Source of the DNA: Candidatus Uhrbacteria bacterium
GTDB taxonomy: Bacteria; Patescibacteriota; Patescibacteriia; UBA9934
Assembly (NCBI GenBank): GCA_903848275.1
Contig: CAINGB010000027.1
Span: 1-42,347 of the forward strand
Reading direction: 5' to 3'
DNA length: 42,347 bases
A program made the translations under genes and the position numbers. Positions 2,801 to 42,245 of this stretch are shown piece after piece. Position 1 is the stretch's first letter, and the number at the start of each line of letters is the position of its first letter. The notes below the pieces were generated by a model. That model had not been told where the DNA came from and did not search any database. It saw nothing but the letters and a program-made list of their open reading frames with translations.

Positions 2801-3523
2801 ATGATGAATCGCTTCTCCCACTTGGACAAACGTCAAAAAATCGCCCTTACCGCTGCCAGTGTCGTGTTACTCGCCATCCTCGTGGTCGGCGGCTACCTGC
2901 TGTTCCACCAGTCCGCCAGCAATAATGCCAACCTCACGTTGTGGCGCGAGACGCAAATCGATGACGCTACCAAAGCCACCCTCACCCAACGCATCGCAAC
3001 TACCATCGCCTCCATCAAAGCCAAGCCGTCAGACACCTCAGCTGTGGACCTGACCAACCTCTATCTCTCCATCGCCAACGACTCGTACATTCTCGGCGAT
3101 CTCGCCACCACGCGGCACTACCTAGAACTGGCTCTGAACCAAAATGCTCTAATGGATACTGCTTGGAACATGTACGGCGACGTGCTGAACCAGATGGGGG
3201 ACCGCGCCAAAGCGGAAGACGCTTTCAAACAAGCCATCCAGATTAGCCCGATGATCAAATACTACATGGACTACGCCGCGTTCCTCAAGCAGGACTCGCC
3301 AGCTCGTGACGCGGATCGTTTGGCCGACCTCCAGCAGGCCGTCACCGTGCTCGGTCAAAGCACAGATCTCATGGTCGCCCTCGCCGAATATTACAACGAT
3401 CACAGCGACTGCGCCGAATCTCTGGCGCACTACAAAGTCGCCGTCACCCTCACTCCCAAGAACCAAGCCATCAAAGACGACATGGCCATGGTCAAGTCCA
3501 CCTGCGTCCAAGCCACCCAGTAG
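2801..3523 (+). CDS. TPR-repeat protein with N-terminal transmembrane helix
   Basis: IALTAASVVLLAILVVGGYLLF TM segment followed by TPR-like helices (AWNMYGDVLNQMGDRAKAEDAFKQAIQISP); ATG at 2801 preferred over GTG 2774. Confidence 0.75.
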   Translation: MMNRFSHLDKRQKIALTAASVVLLAILVVGGYLLFHQSASNNANLTLWRETQIDDATKATLTQRIATTIASIKAKPSDTSAVDLTNLYLSIANDSYILGDLATTRHYLELALNQNALMDTAWNMYGDVLNQMGDRAKAEDAFKQAIQISPMIKYYMDYAAFLKQDSPARDADRLADLQQAVTVLGQSTDLMVALAEYYNDHSDCAESLAHYKVAVTLTPKNQAIKDDMAMVKSTCVQATQ

Positions 3524-3706: not shown

Positions 3707-4390
3707 ATGAGTCACGTCGCGTTTGGTAGTGGAGGTACTTATCACATCATGAATCGCGGGGCAGGGAAGCGGGACATATTTCTTGATGACATCGATCGTG
3801 TTCGTTTTACAAAAGGTCTACTTCTCTTTAACGATGAATCAACATTACCAATGGGCAGGGCACTCGTAGAAGCCTGGAAGAATCCAAAGAAATCCATCCA
3901 TCCACTAGTGAGAATTCTCGCCTACGCTCTCATGGATAACCATTACCACCTCGTACTCGAACAGCTTGTCGACAATGGCATTGCAAGGTTCATGCAACGT
4001 CTCGGCAATGGCTTTACAAAGTATCATAATAAACGCAGCGATAGAAAAGGCGTAGTTTTTGAGGCTCGTTACAAATCGGTCGCCATCCAAACTGAAGCAC
4101 AATTCTTGCATATTACTCGTTACGTCCACCTCAATCCGTACGACAAGTGCGACTACGCTTGGCGTCATGGCGAGGCTCGTTCACGCGACGAGGCCAAGGC
4201 AGTTCTCTTGTCTTATCCATGGTCGAGTTACCGTCATTATAAAGGTCTCGAAGTCAATCCAGCTGTCGACGCTTCTCCCGTCCTTGCCTGCTTTAACGAC
4301 TCTGCCGATTACGAAAACTTCGTTCTCTCCTGGATCAACCGTAACTACGAACCCATTCTCGGCCTCATGCTCGACGACGACTGTGGATAA
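3707..4390 (+). CDS. REP-associated tyrosine transposase (RAYT / Y1_Tnp, IS200-like)
   Basis: HIMNRG, MDNHYHLVLEQLVDNGIARFMQRL, FEARYKS, HITRYVHLNP motifs; flanked by inverted P1 repeats. Confidence 0.92.
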   Translation: MSHVAFGSGGTYHIMNRGAGKRDIFLDDIDRVRFTKGLLLFNDESTLPMGRALVEAWKNPKKSIHPLVRILAYALMDNHYHLVLEQLVDNGIARFMQRLGNGFTKYHNKRSDRKGVVFEARYKSVAIQTEAQFLHITRYVHLNPYDKCDYAWRHGEARSRDEAKAVLLSYPWSSYRHYKGLEVNPAVDASPVLACFNDSADYENFVLSWINRNYEPILGLMLDDDCG

Positions 4391-6725: not shown

Positions 6726-7733
6726 ATGGCAGTTAGTGAAAAGAAAACAGTACTCGTGACAGGCGGCGCCGGTTTCATCGGCTCCTTGCTTTGCGAGCAA
6801 CTCCTCAAGTCTGGTTCCCGAGTCATCTGCATCGACAACTTCGTCACCGGCCATGTCCGTAACATCGAATCCTTGCTCCGTAGTCCCGACTTCCAGTTCC
6901 TCAAGCTCGACATCAATGAACCAATCAACCTCGAGAGCTTCGTCGAACTCCAACCTTTTAACATCCCCTTCGTTGGCATTCAAGAAATCTACCACCTCGC
7001 CGTCCCGACCGCCGTCAAAAAATTTGACCAATATCGCTTGCAAACTCTCCTCGCCAATTCCGTCGGTACTAAAAACGTGCTCGACCTCGCCGTCAAATAC
7101 AAGGCTCGCGTCGTCTTCACCTCGGCCGCCGTTGTTTACGGTCAGCGCCGTGCCGATAGTCCAGTTTTTTCCGAAGAAGATTTGGGCATTCTCGACCACC
7201 TGAATCCTCGTGCCTGCTACAACGAAGGTAAGCGCTTTGCGGAAACCATGTGCCAAACCTACGCCGACGTCCACGGCCTCGACATCAAAATCGCCCGCAT
7301 CTTCCGCACTTACGGCCCGCGCATGCCGCTCTTCAACGGCCACCAGGTGCCAGACTTTATCCTCCATGCGCTCGATAACGAGGACATTGTCATTAGCGGT
7401 ACAGCCGACAGCCTCACTTCCTTAGCCTACGTGGCGGACATTACCGACGGCTTGATTCGCCTGATGCGCGCCGAGGCCAATATTGGGCCGGTTAACATTG
7501 GGAGTGACGTGGATCTCAAGATGAGCGACATTGCCGCTAAAATTATCGAACTCTCCGGTTCCACCTCGAAAATTATCTACGAACCAGCGCCACCATATTT
7601 AGTCGCTATGGGCCTGCCAAATTTGACTAAAGCTAAAGAAAAATTGGGCTGGTTGCCGCTCGTCCGTTTTGAGGATGGCCTGCGCAAAACCATTGACTAC
7701 ATCAGGGCAAACAAGGTACTTTTGACGGAGTAA
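6726..7733 (+). CDS. NAD-dependent epimerase/dehydratase (UDP-glucuronate decarboxylase-like)
   Basis: VLVTGGAGFIGSLLCEQLL Rossmann motif; YNEGKRFAET catalytic region. Confidence 0.88.
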   Translation: MAVSEKKTVLVTGGAGFIGSLLCEQLLKSGSRVICIDNFVTGHVRNIESLLRSPDFQFLKLDINEPINLESFVELQPFNIPFVGIQEIYHLAVPTAVKKFDQYRLQTLLANSVGTKNVLDLAVKYKARVVFTSAAVVYGQRRADSPVFSEEDLGILDHLNPRACYNEGKRFAETMCQTYADVHGLDIKIARIFRTYGPRMPLFNGHQVPDFILHALDNEDIVISGTADSLTSLAYVADITDGLIRLMRAEANIGPVNIGSDVDLKMSDIAAKIIELSGSTSKIIYEPAPPYLVAMGLPNLTKAKEKLGWLPLVRFEDGLRKTIDYIRANKVLLTE

Positions 7734-22842: not shown

Positions 22843-22871
22843 TTGACAAAAGGCCTATTTTTTGCTATACT
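22843..22871 (+). promoter_or_regulatory. Strong sigma70-like promoter
   Basis: TTGACA-17 nt-TATACT with a T-rich GC-ending spacer, matching the promoters in the 38-42 kb array. Confidence 0.8.
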
Positions 22872-22925
22872 TAGCCCCGTTACCTTCTTGTTTTTCGTTT
22901 CGAAACCTACGCTCCGGAGTCTCCC

Positions 22926-23357
22926 ATGCCTGTTCCCGTTATCGACCGTCGAGTCTTTTCGGAAGACTGTCCCGGCCTCTACGCCGTCCTTCTCTGCCTC
23001 TCCGACATCGAAGTAGCCCTTCTGGCTGAGTTGGTGCCAGAGCGTAGCTCGGATCTCTGGGTCAAGTGGACTACCTGGAGTGAGCAGGCCCCTGAAGGCT
23101 CCGAACCGTGTGAGTGGCTAACTGATCTGACGTGCGCCAACATCGTCAAGGTGGTCTACCCTCAGGGCTGCCAGCTCGATGAATTCACGCGGCAGTTGCT
23201 CATGCACGAAGTCATGAAGGCCGTCGCTCCCGAGAATGATGCGGAATTCCTGAACGTGCACTTCGGGGTAGAGCCACAATATGGGCGCGCTCGTAACGTC
23301 GCTTGTCGTGGTTGCAATATGAGGAGCTGCTCGCACTATGTTGCTCGCCCACGCTGA
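22926..23357 (+). CDS. Hypothetical protein (orphan)
   Basis: ATG preceded by CCGGAG; strong promoter upstream, strong terminator downstream. Confidence 0.65.
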   Translation: MPVPVIDRRVFSEDCPGLYAVLLCLSDIEVALLAELVPERSSDLWVKWTTWSEQAPEGSEPCEWLTDLTCANIVKVVYPQGCQLDEFTRQLLMHEVMKAVAPENDAEFLNVHFGVEPQYGRARNVACRGCNMRSCSHYVARPR

Positions 23358-31940: not shown

Positions 31941-31974
31941 ACACAGAAGCCCGGCTTAAGCCGGGCTTCTGTGT
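31941..31974. repeat. P2 palindromic repeat copy 1
   Basis: ACACAGAAGCCCGGCTTAAGCCGGGCTTCTGTGT, perfect 34-nt palindrome; may also terminate pyrG. Confidence 0.92.
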
Positions 31975-32609
31975 TACATCTCAGGGAAGAGTTCGATTTC
32001 ATGCATGAAAGAGTGGTAATCAATAGGACTTGTGATCATATCTTTAATTAAACCAGAATCAACTACCGGGTCTTTACAGATACCTAGATAAAATGGATAG
32101 CTCGACCAGCGATATTGTTTTAGGAATCTATCTCCATCAACTCTGCATTTTGTATCTTTCCAGCCGGGAATATAAAGATCAAGTGGGTTAGTATGAATAT
32201 ATCGCGATAAATGGAGCAGGTATTCATCGCTATCGATGAGTTTCGCCTTGAATCGTCCTTCGAATAGTGAACCTGATCTACCGTGTCTTTCATTAATGTA
32301 TTTAGTATGGCTCGTACCCAGTCTCTGCATAAATTCAGTAATGCCATTATCTACCAACTGTTCAAGCAAAAAATGATAGTGATTAGGCATGAATGAGTAG
32401 CAAACTATTCGCGCCAGGGGCTTTCCCTGCCTGGTCGTTGCTAGACGAAGAACCCGGGTATCTTTATATTTTGTGGCGTCACTATTGAAAATGAACATGT
32501 TTTGGTAAAAATAAAATCTGTCCTGATCATCGTAGAAAATCTCTTGTTTATTGTTTCCACGATTGTATACATGGTAATAACAACCTGTCACAAAGTTCAT
32601 GCCTCGCAT
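31974..32609 (-). CDS. REP-associated tyrosine transposase (RAYT) 2
   Basis: YHVYNRGNNKQEIF, MPNHYHFLLEQLVDNGITEFMQRL, FEGRFKAKLI, LSRYIHTNP. Confidence 0.92.
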   Translation of the reverse strand: MRGMNFVTGCYYHVYNRGNNKQEIFYDDQDRFYFYQNMFIFNSDATKYKDTRVLRLATTRQGKPLARIVCYSFMPNHYHFLLEQLVDNGITEFMQRLGTSHTKYINERHGRSGSLFEGRFKAKLIDSDEYLLHLSRYIHTNPLDLYIPGWKDTKCRVDGDRFLKQYRWSSYPFYLGICKDPVVDSGLIKDMITSPIDYHSFMHEIELFPEM

Positions 32610-32712
32610 AAAATTAAATAATAAAATCCCCAAACACTCGGATTTAAGAGCGGGGGAGTATCTATATTACCTCACCGTCAAAGATCTTTGTCAATGTGGA
32701 TAACTTATGTCT

Positions 32713-37178: not shown

Positions 37179-37889
37179 ATGCCGCACCTGAAACTAGCCG
37201 CCAAAGAACCAATCGTTATTTCGCTCGGCGGTTCGCTGATTGTCCCCGACGGTGGCCCCGACATCAAATTTCTCACGGCTTTTCGTAAATACGTTCTCGA
37301 CCTCGTCAAGGGCGGCCACAAAATCGTCATCGTTTGCGGTGGCGGCAAAACCGCTCGTCATTACATCAATGCGGCGAGCGAGGTGATGGACGCTATCGAC
37401 CCCGAAGATTTGGACTGGCTAGGTATTCATGCCACCCGCTTGAACGCTCACCTCCTCCGCACCTTATTCCGCGCTGTCGCTCATCCGAACGTCATCAAAC
37501 ATCCTATGCGGACGCCTCGTCACTGGAACGAGAAAGTCCTCGTTGCTGCCGGCTGGAAGCCAGGTTGGAGTACGGACTATGTGGCTTGTCGTATTGCCGG
37601 ACTCATGAAAGTTAAACACATTATCAACGCTAGCAACATCGAATACGTCTACACGGCGGATCCTCGCACCGATAAAACCGCTACCATCGTCAAGGAAATG
37701 ACCTGGCACGACTATCGCCACATGGTCGGCAATGAGTGGTCACCCGGTCTCTCCGCCCCGTTCGACCCCGTCGCCTCAAAATACTGTTCTCGTCACGACA
37801 TCGCAGTCGCCATCGTCGACGGCCGTAACCTCTCGAACCTCGCGCAAGTTATTGACGGCGCAGACTTCAGGGGAACATTGTTATCTTAG
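37179..37889 (+). CDS. pyrH: UMP kinase, archaeal-like amino acid kinase family
   Basis: IVISLGGSLIVPDGGPD, VCGGGKTARHYI, STDYVACRIAGL, NASNIEYVYTADP, GTLLS. Confidence 0.8.
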   Translation: MPHLKLAAKEPIVISLGGSLIVPDGGPDIKFLTAFRKYVLDLVKGGHKIVIVCGGGKTARHYINAASEVMDAIDPEDLDWLGIHATRLNAHLLRTLFRAVAHPNVIKHPMRTPRHWNEKVLVAAGWKPGWSTDYVACRIAGLMKVKHIINASNIEYVYTADPRTDKTATIVKEMTWHDYRHMVGNEWSPGLSAPFDPVASKYCSRHDIAVAIVDGRNLSNLAQVIDGADFRGTLLS

Positions 37890-38136: not shown

Positions 38137-38415
38137 CTAGTCCCACATCCACCCAGGCATAGGCGGTGGCTTCATCGACTCGGCGATTGCCTCGACAATC
38201 ACTTCACGCAGACCGAGCGAAGAAGCTGGGTGGCTCCGCATGTCCTCGATGAGTTTGGTTAGCTGGACCTTGAGTTGATTCACTTGGCTGGCTTTGCCTG
38301 ACGAGCCGACGCGGATGAAGTTCTTGTTGGTGCTGTGGCTCCGGTCGCCGAAGTCCACAGTGGCGAATTGCCAGCCATCATCAGTGATTTGTACGAACAA
38401 AATGTAGGTTCGCAT
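38137..38415 (-). CDS. Array small hypothetical protein 1
   Basis: MRTYILFVQITDDGWQFATVDFGD; AGGAGG Shine-Dalgarno before ATG. Confidence 0.7.
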   Translation of the reverse strand: MRTYILFVQITDDGWQFATVDFGDRSHSTNKNFIRVGSSGKASQVNQLKVQLTKLIEDMRSHPASSLGLREVIVEAIAESMKPPPMPGWMWD

Positions 38416-38439
38416 GGGTACCTCCTGTTCATTGTGTAG

Positions 38440-38540
38440 TGCCCTCGCAGTCCTCGACGACATAACTCGTCAAAAATTATGAGGGCACCAGCAATCGTTT
38501 TCACGACTGCCAGTACGGGGCGACGGGGAAGAGCCTTCCC
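38440..38540 (-). ncRNA. Array intergenic structured RNA element R1
   Basis: H1 38440-38487 and H2 38487-38514 pair fully in minus orientation with G-U wobbles. Confidence 0.7.
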
Positions 38541-38556
38541 TCATCGCGAGTCGGCA

Positions 38557-39072
38557 CTAGCTCTCGTCGCCGAGCCAAGCCGGGTTCGGCTCGATGTCGA
38601 ACTCGTCGTCCTGGTCAACATTGGTACTGACCTGGCTGACGGCATCGCTGTCATCCTCGTCTGCCTCCGCAATATCGTCACCGTTACTGATCGGCTCGCG
38701 CCAGTCAGCACCCTGCCACTCATTGCGGTGCGGGACGTCGAGGCGCAGCTCAATGTCGCTGGCCACGATGTAGTCGTCAAGCATCTGGTTCTGCACAGCC
38801 TCCTTCTTGGTGACGATGAGGGAGTGCCCATTGGCCTCGGAGATGCAGAGCAGCCCCAGTTGGCTCAATTTCGGGCAGCTGTCGAGCGGCATCCACTCCC
38901 CAGTTGTCCTGCTGAAGAAGCCGATCGCTGTCTCATTCTCGGCATCATCAAACAATGTGAAGAAAATCTCGTGCTCTGGCAACGCGACATCGGCGAACCG
39001 ATGGGCTGCGAACAGAACGATGGCGGCCTGGGCGGCTTCGGTGGGGGAGAGGGATTTGTCGGGGAAGAACAT
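38557..39072 (-). CDS. Array small hypothetical protein 2
   Basis: MFFPDKSLSPTEAAQAAIVLFAAHRF; ends FDIEPNPAWLGDES. Confidence 0.68.
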   Translation of the reverse strand: MFFPDKSLSPTEAAQAAIVLFAAHRFADVALPEHEIFFTLFDDAENETAIGFFSRTTGEWMPLDSCPKLSQLGLLCISEANGHSLIVTKKEAVQNQMLDDYIVASDIELRLDVPHRNEWQGADWREPISNGDDIAEADEDDSDAVSQVSTNVDQDDEFDIEPNPAWLGDES

Positions 39073-39129
39073 GAGGGCGCACTCCGGTTGGGGGGAAAGA
39101 GACTCCGCGACATGCGGTGACTCGCGAAA

Positions 39130-39158
39130 AATATAATAAAAAAAAGCGGTTTTGTCAA
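39130..39158 (-). promoter_or_regulatory. Sigma70-like promoter TTGACA-N17-TATATT
   Basis: Reverse complement of 39130-39158. Confidence 0.82.
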
Positions 39159-39185
39159 TCAAAGACGGCATCTTGGTCTAGCTAG

Positions 39186-39280
39186 TGTCCTCGCAATCCT
39201 CGAAAATTCCTTCCAGGATTATGGGGGCACCGGCAACTCTTGCGAGCTGCTGGTACGGGGCGACGGGGAGGCGCACTCCC
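39186..39280 (-). ncRNA. Array intergenic structured RNA element R2
   Basis: H1 39186-39229; H2 39229-39254 with GCAA loop; H3 GGGGAG/CTCCCT. Confidence 0.68.
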
Positions 39281-39295
39281 TGGTCGCAAGGTCGA

Positions 39296-39805
39296 CTAGT
39301 CGTCGTCGCCGAGCCAGACGGGATCTGACTCGAGGTCGAAATAGTCGCTGTCGAAGAAGCCGCCGAGGCTGTTCGGGTTGGTCTGACTGGCGAACCAGCC
39401 GGACTTGTCGAGCCCAAGGCAGGGATCGAAGGAGTCGATCACGGCCTCGTCAGCGATGTCCTGGTCGGTCTTCTCGATCTCGTCATCGAACAAAGCCAGA
39501 ACATCCTCATCCTCACCGAGCGTATCGGCAACGGTGTCGCGATCCCAGGCTGGCAGCGTGGTCACGAGGAGATCGACGCAGCGCTTGCTGACGCCGATAT
39601 TGGTCGGGTCGTCGTGGTCATCCTCCTCGGTGCTGAACGTTGAGACGTTGCTGGCAAGGAGGGGAGCATCAGGCTTCAGGTTTGGCACGTCAGGGGACGT
39701 CTCGGTGATGTAGATGTACAAGCAGCCGCGCGGCAGGAAGTCGATGTCGTCATGGGATGTGATGATGGCGGGGGGGTGTTCAGGGGGACTGGCGGGGGTG
39801 AACAT
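39296..39805 (-). CDS. Array small acidic hypothetical protein 3
   Basis: MFTPASPPEHPPAIITSHDD; ends FDLESDPVWLGDDD, matching protein 2 C-terminus. Confidence 0.68.
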   Translation of the reverse strand: MFTPASPPEHPPAIITSHDDIDFLPRGCLYIYITETSPDVPNLKPDAPLLASNVSTFSTEEDDHDDPTNIGVSKRCVDLLVTTLPAWDRDTVADTLGEDEDVLALFDDEIEKTDQDIADEAVIDSFDPCLGLDKSGWFASQTNPNSLGGFFDSDYFDLESDPVWLGDDD

Positions 39806-39859
39806 TGAACGTACTCCAACTTGGAAAGAGACGCAGCGGAACTGCAGCGACTCGCGAAA

Positions 39860-39888
39860 ATAATAGCAAAAAAAGACGTTTTTGTCAA
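39860..39888 (-). promoter_or_regulatory. Sigma70-like promoter TTGACA-N17-TATTAT
   Basis: Reverse complement of 39860-39888. Confidence 0.82.
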
Positions 39889-39905
39889 TGTAATTAGTCA
39901 CAAAT

Positions 39906-39944
39906 CAAAAAACCAGTGGGAGAGAGATCCACTGGTCTTTTGAA
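39906..39944 (-). terminator. Rho-independent terminator of upstream array operon
   Basis: Minus strand ACCAGTGGATCTCTCTCCCACTGGTTTTTTG. Confidence 0.82.
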
Positions 39945-40004
39945 TTGTGCCCGACTTCGTAGTCGGACACCGGTTTGCCACGTCGGTCAAGACTGACTAT
40001 GGCG

Positions 40005-40298
40005 CTACGCCTGCGGCACGAGATTGATCCTCATGATGACCGGCGGCGGACGACGTTGATGGAGGGCCATGATCGCCTCGTTGACGATGTCCTGCAGGTT
40101 ACCTCCGCGCTGCTTGGCGCGACGTTGCCTGATGTCGTTCACGATCTCACGCTCGATGGCCGCCACGGCGAAGAAGTCGCGCGTGACATAGGCCTGCTTC
40201 ATCTTCAGGCCCGGCAGAGCGTCCGGCAAGATGTTGGCGTACGAGTGGATGGCCAGGATGCCACCCTCGAAGGTGGCCAGGTAGATGATCCAGGGCAT
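40005..40298 (-). CDS. Array small hypothetical protein 4
   Basis: MPWIIYLATFEGGILAIHSYANILPDALPG; AGGAGG Shine-Dalgarno. Confidence 0.72.
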   Translation of the reverse strand: MPWIIYLATFEGGILAIHSYANILPDALPGLKMKQAYVTRDFFAVAAIEREIVNDIRQRRAKQRGGNLQDIVNEAIMALHQRRPPPVIMRINLVPQA

Positions 40299-40308
40299 GG
40301 CTGACCTC

Positions 40309-40518
40309 CTAGTAGCGGAAGTTGACGTGACGGCCACCGCGCCGGGCCGCCTGGGCCTGAGCCGCGACGTCGGCCGGACCGGGGACGTAGCTGTCGTCCG
40401 GCTCGTACTCGTCGCCCTCCTCGAGCCAGTCCTCGCTGTCGCACATCAGGTGCACGGCGAGGAGCATGGTGGAACGGAGCAGATCATCTGCTCGCAGTTG
40501 GGTCTGGGTAGAAGACAT
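40309..40518 (-). CDS. Array small hypothetical protein 5
   Basis: MSSTQTQLRADDLLRSTMLLAVHLM; AGAGGT Shine-Dalgarno. Confidence 0.65.
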   Translation of the reverse strand: MSSTQTQLRADDLLRSTMLLAVHLMCDSEDWLEEGDEYEPDDSYVPGPADVAAQAQAARRGGRHVNFRY

Positions 40519-40557
40519 GAGATGTACCTCTTGGTTTTGGTACAACGCTGTATGCGC

Positions 40558-40655
40558 TGCCCTCGCAATTCTCGAATTACTTCGAGAACTCTGAGGGCAC
40601 CAGCAATCACGTTCGACGTGACTGCCGTGCGGGCCGCAGGACGAACTCCTGTGGC
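40558..40655 (-). ncRNA. Array intergenic structured RNA element R3
   Basis: H1 with GUAA loop (40558-40599), H2 (40598-40629), H3 GCCGCAGGA/TCCTGTGGC (40633-40655). Confidence 0.75.
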
Positions 40656-41125
40656 TATTGTACGGAACGGGACCCAGGGCCGTAAAGCTCGCGCTGGATG
40701 AGCTGAACCTCGTCGAGTTCGCTGTCGTCCTCGCCCGGCAGGAGTGCTCGCAGCAGCTGTTCCTGCTGCTCCCTCACCAAATCCTCAGCCTCGAGCTCGG
40801 CCTCGGTCTCCAGGTGGTAGCGCTGCTCGGCGAAGAAGTCGGTGGCGACCAACCGCAGTTCAGTGATCGGCAAGTTGCCCCGCTTGCCACCCATTTTGCT
40901 CATCACCCAGATCTTGAAGGCCTCGTCCTCGAACGTGAGGCTGAGGCTCTCCAGGTCGAAGGTGTAGACGATCCGGCGGACATTCTTGCCGGCCAGCTTG
41001 ACCGCGAAGGTCGCGATGGCCAGCTCGGCACCGGGGCTGACGCTGAGCTTGCGCTTGCTCCGCGGCTCGATGTCGAACCGCAAGTTGGGCGGCGGGGACT
41101 GAAAAAGCTTCTGTGTGATGGTCAT
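40655..41125 (-). CDS. Array small hypothetical protein 6
   Basis: MTITQKLFQSPPPNLRFDIEPRSKRKLSVSPGAELAIATFAVKLAG; AAGAGGT Shine-Dalgarno. Confidence 0.7.
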   Translation of the reverse strand: MTITQKLFQSPPPNLRFDIEPRSKRKLSVSPGAELAIATFAVKLAGKNVRRIVYTFDLESLSLTFEDEAFKIWVMSKMGGKRGNLPITELRLVATDFFAEQRYHLETEAELEAEDLVREQQEQLLRALLPGEDDSELDEVQLIQRELYGPGSRSVQ

Positions 41126-41160
41126 GTTTACCTCTTGGTTTGGCACAACGCTGTATGCGA

Positions 41161-41263
41161 TGCCCTCGCAATCCTCGAATCACTTCTAGAACTCTGAGGG
41201 TACCGCCGGCCGAATGTGAGTTCGACCGGAGGGTACGAGCTGAAAGACGAAACTCTTTCAGCT
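41161..41263 (-). ncRNA. Array intergenic structured RNA element R4
   Basis: H1 41161-41202 with GUGA loop; H2 CCGGUCGAA/UUCGGCCGG; H3 AGCTGAAAG/CTTTCAGCT. Confidence 0.75.
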
Positions 41264-41273
41264 ATAGTCACGA

Positions 41274-41678
41274 CTACTCGTCACTGCCCGAGCTGTAGCA
41301 GACGCCGATGAGCTCGTCCAAACCGAGCAAACGACGTGTCTTGTTGACCTGGGCGTTGTAGTCAGCCGCCGATTCATGTCTGATGACCTCGCGCATGCTC
41401 TCGATGAGGCAGCCGCCACTGTCGCCGGCCAGCCTCGAGGCCACGAGCCCCAACGCCGTCACGCCGACGCAGTGCTCGTTGCTGCCGACGGGCCAGCGGT
41501 CCTGCTCGGCCTCGTTGTAGAACGACAGCGTGGCGGTCTCCCAGCCGTCGGTGAAGTTCAGATAGAACATCACGTAGGGCCAGCTGCGGTACATCCTCGC
41601 GACGTGTGCCGTGATGACGGCCCGGGCGGCGATGGTGGTGATGACGTTGTTCAAGTTTCCGACAATGATCTGGGCCAT
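41274..41678 (-). CDS. Array small hypothetical protein 7
   Basis: MAQIIVGNLNNVITTIAARAVITAHVARMYRSWPYVMFYLNFTDGWETATLSFYNEAE; CAGAGGT Shine-Dalgarno. Confidence 0.7.
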   Translation of the reverse strand: MAQIIVGNLNNVITTIAARAVITAHVARMYRSWPYVMFYLNFTDGWETATLSFYNEAEQDRWPVGSNEHCVGVTALGLVASRLAGDSGGCLIESMREVIRHESAADYNAQVNKTRRLLGLDELIGVCYSSGSDE

Positions 41679-41723
41679 GAAAAACCTCTGGGTTGAGTGT
41701 TGTTTGTTAGAGCAGTTTATGGC

Positions 41724-41824
41724 TGCCCCCGCAATCTTCGAAACTCAGTTCGAAAACTCTGGGGGCACCGGCAGCGAATTTCTTCACTGCCGGCACGGGG
41801 TACATCACGTCGTGCGCGAACGAC
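41724..41824 (-). ncRNA. Array intergenic structured RNA element R5
   Basis: H1 GCCCCC/GGGGGC (covaries with GCCCTC/GAGGGC in R1 and R3); H2 with GAAA tetraloop. Confidence 0.75.
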
Positions 41825-41831
41825 TATGGAG

Positions 41832-42185
41832 CTACGCGGCCAGCTTCTCATCGACGTACTCGAAAGCACCAGCTTCGTCGGCCTCGTCAAGCGTGCAGAT
41901 GAAGTAGCTGCCGTCGCGGTCGGTCCAGGCCGCGAGCTCGAGCGACTCGAGAATCAGCGTCCAGGCAGGGATGCCCTTGTTGCTGATCGGCAGCCACAGC
42001 GGGTTGCCAGCTCGGTCGTAGAACTTGAGGCTGTCGGCGTTCGGGTCCTCCTCGTTGTAGACCAGCTCGTAGCTGATCTCGCGGAGCTGCTCGTACTTCT
42101 TGGCGACGAACTCGGCGATGATCTGCTTGGCGGCCGGGGTGGGGAGCAGGAAGTCGGCGTGGGTGATGATCTGGGTGATTTTCAT
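41832..42185 (-). CDS. Array small hypothetical protein 8
   Basis: MKITQIITHADFLLPTPAAKQIIAEFVAKKYEQLREISYELVYNEEDPNADSLKFYDRAGNPLWLP; GAGGT Shine-Dalgarno. Confidence 0.7.
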   Translation of the reverse strand: MKITQIITHADFLLPTPAAKQIIAEFVAKKYEQLREISYELVYNEEDPNADSLKFYDRAGNPLWLPISNKGIPAWTLILESLELAAWTDRDGSYFICTLDEADEAGAFEYVDEKLAA

Positions 42186-42245
42186 GACAAACCTCGTTTG
42201 GCAGGGGGTGGATTTCTCGAGCACCGCAGGGGATACTCGCTGCTA

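Follow-up and report, generated by a model that had tools for sequence, protein, structure and literature searches.

Eight small genes beside a UMP-kinase-like gene

The DNA analysed here (the window) is a whole contig of 42,347 bases from a genome of 0.98 Mb (G000), and it is a Candidatus Uhrbacteria-like (Patescibacteria) contig. Between positions 38137 and 42224 its minus strand carries eight small genes encoding 69-171 amino acids, each with a plausible Shine-Dalgarno (SD) site, as a sequence-only reading of the contig had described. With the likeliest ATG starts the array spans 38137-42185, and position 42224 corresponds to an upstream GTG. In the direction of transcription the genes are P8 (41832-42185, 117 aa), P7 (41274-41678, 134 aa), P6 (40655-41125, 156 aa), P5 (40309-40518, 69 aa), P4 (40005-40298, 97 aa), P3 (39296-39805, 169 aa), P2 (38557-39072, 171 aa) and P1 (38137-38415, 92 aa). 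The conserved flank of the array is an amino-acid-kinase-family (UMP-kinase-like) gene on the plus strand (37179-37889), which in relatives is usually followed by rplJ-rplL. The P8 promoter is about 70 bases away from the end of the contig, so part of the array may be missing beyond the edge.

Judged by composition and conservation, the eight ORFs are genes rather than chance ORFs, since their GC content at third codon positions (GC3) is elevated (0.71-0.91 versus mostly 0.58-0.71 in neighbouring genes) and P7, P4 and P2 have syntenic orthologues in a congener, G001 (contig matched to JAGVNL010000028.1, DeMMO3_42). Expression-level codon bias alone is insufficient to account for the GC3 of the array, because GC3 of the G001 rplJ and rplL genes reaches only 0.58-0.67.

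One type of promoter-like site (TTGACAAA, T-tract, TATTAT) occurs upstream of P8, P3 and P2, all on the minus strand. The sites for P8 (42246-42274) and P3 (39860-39888) read TTGACA-17-TATTAT, and the site for P2 (39130-39158) has TTGACA, a T-tract and TTATAT. The pattern, which was drawn from these same promoters, finds four sites in the whole window where none are expected in shuffled sequence. Reading of the sequence and folding also place hairpins followed by T-tracts, resembling intrinsic terminators, 3' of P4 (39905-39936, minus strand) and 3' of P1 (38058-38087, minus strand). The placement of these promoter-like and terminator-like sites suggests about three promoter-led units, namely P8-P7-P6-P5-P4, P3 and P2-P1.

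A duplicated and fast-diverging protein family

Searches of the eight proteins against Pfam, NCBIfam, PHROG and PADLOC gave no significant matches, which bears out their earlier description as belonging to no recognised family. Most are acidic (pI 4.05 for P2 and P3, 4.33 for P8), and no secretion signals were seen in the array proteins of G000. The proteins are small and mostly cytosolic, as had been proposed, with the correction that P4 is basic (pI 10) and P1 neutral.

The sequence-only reading had also suggested common descent from weak shared patterns. Within a 13-protein set, P8, P7 and P2 match one another by BLASTP with E values of 2e-4 to 1e-7, and in most profile tests none of 300 shuffles scored as high (2/300 did for Q2 against the P7 pair). 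On these similarities P2, P7 and P8 are true paralogues, which we term family A. Scored with a five-member family profile, P6, P1 and Q8 (a G001 protein) each exceed every one of 300 shuffles, and P6 and P1 are probably family A members as well; the resemblance of P1 is to the beta part of the family, with a weak one to P4. Paralogy of P4 is only weakly supported by its marginal similarity to P1. P3, P5 and P4 show no link to the family A profile. P5 is an acidic ORFan that has no detectable paralogue, so the shared patterns do not extend to it, and P3 is a very acidic ORFan whose reported C-terminal likeness to P2 is confined to a 15-residue tail; P2 itself is a family A protein with an acidic tail. 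Tandem duplication followed by fast divergence is therefore upheld for at least three, and probably five, proteins of one family, but not for P3 or P5.

AlphaFold models were compared by Foldseek for P7 and P4, and neither gave a significant fold match. The P4 model is a predicted beta-beta-beta-alpha-alpha arrangement (pLDDT 80), and the P7 model (pLDDT 63) has helices plus strands. A fold like that of the ribosome hibernation factor HPF was the top match of the low-confidence P7 model in two libraries; the match is not significant (E 0.08, TM about 0.3), and we do not claim such a fold.

The array genes diverge fast. Amino-acid identity to the positional orthologues in G001 is 61% for P7 (orthologue at L035:2729-3109), 49% for P2, 35% for P4 and 22% for P1/Q1, compared with 67-94% for neighbouring genes. 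Nei-Gojobori dN/dS is 0.48-0.72 in the array versus 0.04-0.09 in the neighbours, although the array values are inflated because extreme GC3 restricts synonymous change and depresses dS. We therefore rely on changes at codon positions 1+2, where the acceleration is independent of dS (0.27-0.47 versus 0.04-0.20); positive selection is not thereby proven. At the DNA level the spacers are 83/74% identical to those of the congener, whereas the coding sequences are 74/64/51/45% identical, and the impression that the spacer RNAs are better conserved than the proteins was correct in these terms.

A structured RNA in the spacers

In five array spacers, all read on the minus strand, tandem hairpins precede the next gene. 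These are s87 (41724-41797; hairpin 2 at 41724-41769), s76 (41161-41239; hairpin 2 at 41161-41204), s65 (40558-40630; hairpin 2 at 40558-40601), s32, which lies between P3 and the P2 promoter (39186-39256; hairpin 2 at 39186-39231), and s21, between P2 and P1 (38440-38516; hairpin 2 at 38440-38489). The hairpin is missing from two gaps, one between P5 and P4 and one in G001. All five spacers fold far better than shuffled copies, with z between -3.4 and -7.7 (between -0.6 and -2.2 for coding controls). Hairpin 2 of this type (R1) consists of 6-7 outer and about 10 inner pairs on either side of a 2x2 internal loop (AG/GC), in all about 18 helical layers, and is common to G000, G001 and a further Candidatus Uhrbacteria bacterium, G010 (contig matched to CAIKHN010000024.1).

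In another genus, represented by G015, the second spacer hairpin has an outer stem, an A.C mismatch, 3 bp, a Y.Y mismatch and 7 bp. An alignment of these hairpins, independent of model matches, shows 10/17 pairs changed on both sides. A model of the G015 hairpin (R2) gave strong matches in G006, G037, G051, G033, G045 and G030, and a 15-sequence model (R3) was built without any window sequence. In R3, 13/17 pairs are changed on both sides, with 56 changed cells versus 16.9 in shuffles, counts that include sequences found with R2 and are hence biased towards structure. None of 500 shuffles reached the observed changed cells or score, and slid controls gave 2-6 pairs. Covariation in an eight-sequence alignment using the window's own hairpins alone is modest (4/15 pairs). 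Folding on the sense strand is indicated by 32 G.U versus 5 A.C cells.

When R3 was run on the whole window, the window's hairpins ranked 1, 2, 3 and 5, with s65 the best match; detection of these R1-type hairpins is weak (E 1e-4 to 0.3). Conversely, the best match of R1 in 90 kb of other loci is the G015 hairpin c1 (E 0.044). Because R3 ranks the window hairpins so highly and R1 finds c1, we treat the R1-type and G015/R3-type hairpins as one RNA family, which they probably are. Searches of the whole window and eight loci against Rfam 15 at the gathering score gave no matches. By these comparative data, hairpin 2 represents a structured RNA family of this order that is absent from Rfam. In the literature searched, neither this RNA nor the array turned up, an absence that is weak evidence.

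Distribution of the RNA and of the array

Most of the 31 listed copies of the element, including those of the window, lie 4-134 nt upstream of an SD-led ORF of 42-171 aa, and matches in other genera and families are mostly located 5' of ORFs of 42-137 aa. The downstream ORF chosen by script is doubtful for G037b, G051, G033 and s21. Copies G045a, G049 and G064a have no SD-led ORF within 260 nt, and one of these is near a contig end. In G006 and G064 the hairpin directly follows a promoter and is hence also found outside intercistronic positions.

Scans with R3 covered 1,598 genome slots, with overlaps. Matches at E<=1e-4 were obtained in 9/381 genomes class-wide and 4/380 phylum-wide, under strict filters by which weak matches are lost. 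The few R3 matches in other classes of the phylum lack a clear context; one of them is in a pnp leader, where it possibly arose by chance. The distribution of the R3 element, as recovered by these models, is centred on this order. A hairpin pattern search in genome contigs returned G010, G001, a single Devosia contig and nothing else; the Devosia contig was discarded as a carrier of the family because R3 gives no match to it. Phage, plasmid and viral contigs searched for the RNA yielded nothing convincing; pattern matches in viral contigs were mostly one perfect terminator-like hairpin.

In most family members tested, rplJ-rplL follows the kinase gene after 0.25-1.3 kb. Copy number varies among sister genomes, a point that the earlier reading had proposed to check by synteny: in G001 the gap is occupied by an array of five minus-strand genes, among them the P7, P4 and P2 orthologues in the same order, with macAB-like genes after it, and elsewhere the gap is short (0.64 kb in G003) or contains other genes. 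The kinase gene was unmatched in G002 and G004, of the same genus, which hence fall outside the array comparison. In G015 the gap (L038) is 7.7 kb long; its small ORFs, about 13 in number and on the plus strand, have spacers of the kind seen in the window. Many of these ORFs have signal or membrane segments, judged by eye, and this cargo of small secreted or membrane proteins is unrelated to the window's proteins. The two genera share a locus and a spacer RNA but differ in cargo. G006, of the genus of G015, has a short version of the array, and G010 has two small ORFs between rplJ and xseA. Gaps in more distant relatives hold other genes and no array of this kind.

A search with P8 in 60 relatives matched only P8 itself, and the family A profile matched only G000 and G001 among 73 genomes of the order. 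The proteins had no convincing matches among the phages, plasmids and viral contigs searched.

A possible role in punctuating messages

The fixed orientation of the hairpins, their constant position ahead of small genes and the G.U pairs on the sense strand point to a role at the mRNA level. We tentatively read the locus as a lineage-specific accessory array in the interval that separates rplJ-rplL from the UMP-kinase-like gene in Ca. Uhrbacteria, in which hairpin 2 may serve as modular mRNA punctuation for small genes; we give this joint reading slightly less than an even chance. In such a scheme hairpin 2 would act as a leader or processing element, either being cut or bound by an enzyme of the RNase III type or insulating a 5' end. 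Each small gene would thereby behave as a separate message with a stability and a translation start of its own, and cargo genes could be duplicated, lost or replaced with the operon intact. The fast divergence of the proteins might, less securely, reflect a setting of conflict or host interaction. A broader form of the proposal, for which we hold a similarly guarded preference, is that this RNA of the Uhrbacteria order is a standard leader or insulator for small, lineage-specific and fast-evolving proteins, and that its multiplication at the umpk-rplJ site could build arrays whose cargo is exchanged around a persisting RNA punctuation.

Most members of the Patescibacteria, a very large group, are uncultured; their genomes are small, and their many lineage-specific proteins have no assigned function. 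A conserved RNA element ahead of small ORFans provides a sequence handle for real small genes in these organisms. The finding also reveals a variable locus common to genera and suggests how such small genes are expressed.

We favour processing or insulation of single messages, with translational control as the main rival. The genome does encode RNase III, but classical RNase III sites are longer than the about 18 helical layers of hairpin 2. Counting against processing alone, in G037 and G030 the 3' arm contains or adjoins the SD, an arrangement that would also fit translational control. Specifically, the hairpin might respond to a ligand or a protein, as a riboswitch-like or autoregulatory leader would, and so control how the small gene downstream is translated. 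Its position in the 5' leaders of G006 and G064, immediately behind the promoter, the SD inside or beside the 3' arm in G037 and G030/G025, and conserved mismatches with a nearly invariant U.G pair that resemble a recognition feature are consistent with this mechanism. In most copies, however, the hairpin does not contain the SD, which follows 20-60 nt downstream, an alternative fold was not found, and the downstream genes are mutually unrelated with no visible common pathway. We consider a responsive leader unlikely, though a serious contender.

The sequence-only reading had compared the locus to effector, anti-phage or immunity arrays, in which the proteins would form an arms-race system and the RNA would be incidental. 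Fast divergence, gene turnover between congeners, small acidic proteins and a variable locus would all fit. That proposal is nevertheless improbable and has no direct support: no defence, toxin or phage family was matched in PADLOC, PHROG or Pfam, no phage or plasmid homologue was found where searched, no fold match was significant, no defence neighbours were noticed, and the G015 array carries cargo of another kind.

The spacers could also be REP-like mobile palindromes spread by the genome's Y1 (IS200-like) transposases. As in REP/BIME systems, palindromes lie between genes and Y1_Tnp genes are present (two such proteins are encoded in the window), and a true palindromic repeat occurs upstream of both G001 array promoters. 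The window hairpins are, however, undispersed, with R1 matches in the genome confined to the array; the copies covary instead of being near-identical, hold a fixed orientation and position before small ORFs, and are rare outside the order. We regard a REP-like origin as very unlikely. An integron-like cassette array with attC hairpins is also very unlikely: small ORFans that share one orientation and mostly have a hairpin behind them, with content varying between species, would suit one, but reading the spacers by eye revealed no RYYYAAC/GTTRRRY cores, an integrase was not noticed nearby, promoters are internal, shared genes keep the same order in G000 and G001, and the stem contains G.U on the sense strand.

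Comparison with known processing hairpins

For the favoured reading, message processing or insulation, the best functional analogy is with the early operons of T7-type phages, where RNase III hairpins separate small host-takeover genes. The likeness lies in small, fast-evolving genes in a row with interrupted-stem mRNA hairpins between them. The window array differs in being chromosomal, at a conserved Patescibacteria site, and in having two tandem hairpins, with cleavage here only proposed; viral contigs gave no convincing match to its RNA. Another long interrupted leader hairpin is that of E. coli pnp, which is cut by RNase III. The pnp leaders of this order are not R3-like, as the R3 model does not match them, and we did not take them as support for membership of the RNase III class; they also fold into long interrupted hairpins.

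Further elements elsewhere in the window and in other genomes

A fourth promoter of the type that precedes genes in the array lies elsewhere in the window, where it forms a unit (22843-23357, + strand) with a single gene encoding a 143-aa ORFan (22926-23357). This gene, which has a GC3 of 0.66, is followed on its 3′ side by a terminator-like hairpin, and its product does not belong to family A, the paralogue family of the array.

In the syntenic five-gene array of the congener G001, both promoters are preceded upstream by a perfect palindromic repeat, CAACCCTTAGGGTTG-GT-CAACCCTAAGGGTTG, plus adjoining sequence (L035:1795-1826 and 3246-3277). The window itself encodes two Y1_Tnp transposase-like proteins (3707-4390, + strand; 31974-32633, − strand), both of which are IS200-like and possibly REP-associated.

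Two spacers of the array in G015, a member of another genus, carry a 97% identical insertion (L038:3738-3803 and 7131-7196) that seems to sit within the loop of hairpin 2, the second of the tandem spacer hairpins. One genome within this class has a hairpin of the type described by our R2 and R3 models (L089:1501-1547) between an apparent tRNA 3′ end, immediately 5′ of the hairpin, and the start of another tRNA. Long interrupted hairpins are the fold of the pnp leaders in this order (upstream of pnp, L123-L151), and these resemble the E. coli pnp leader.
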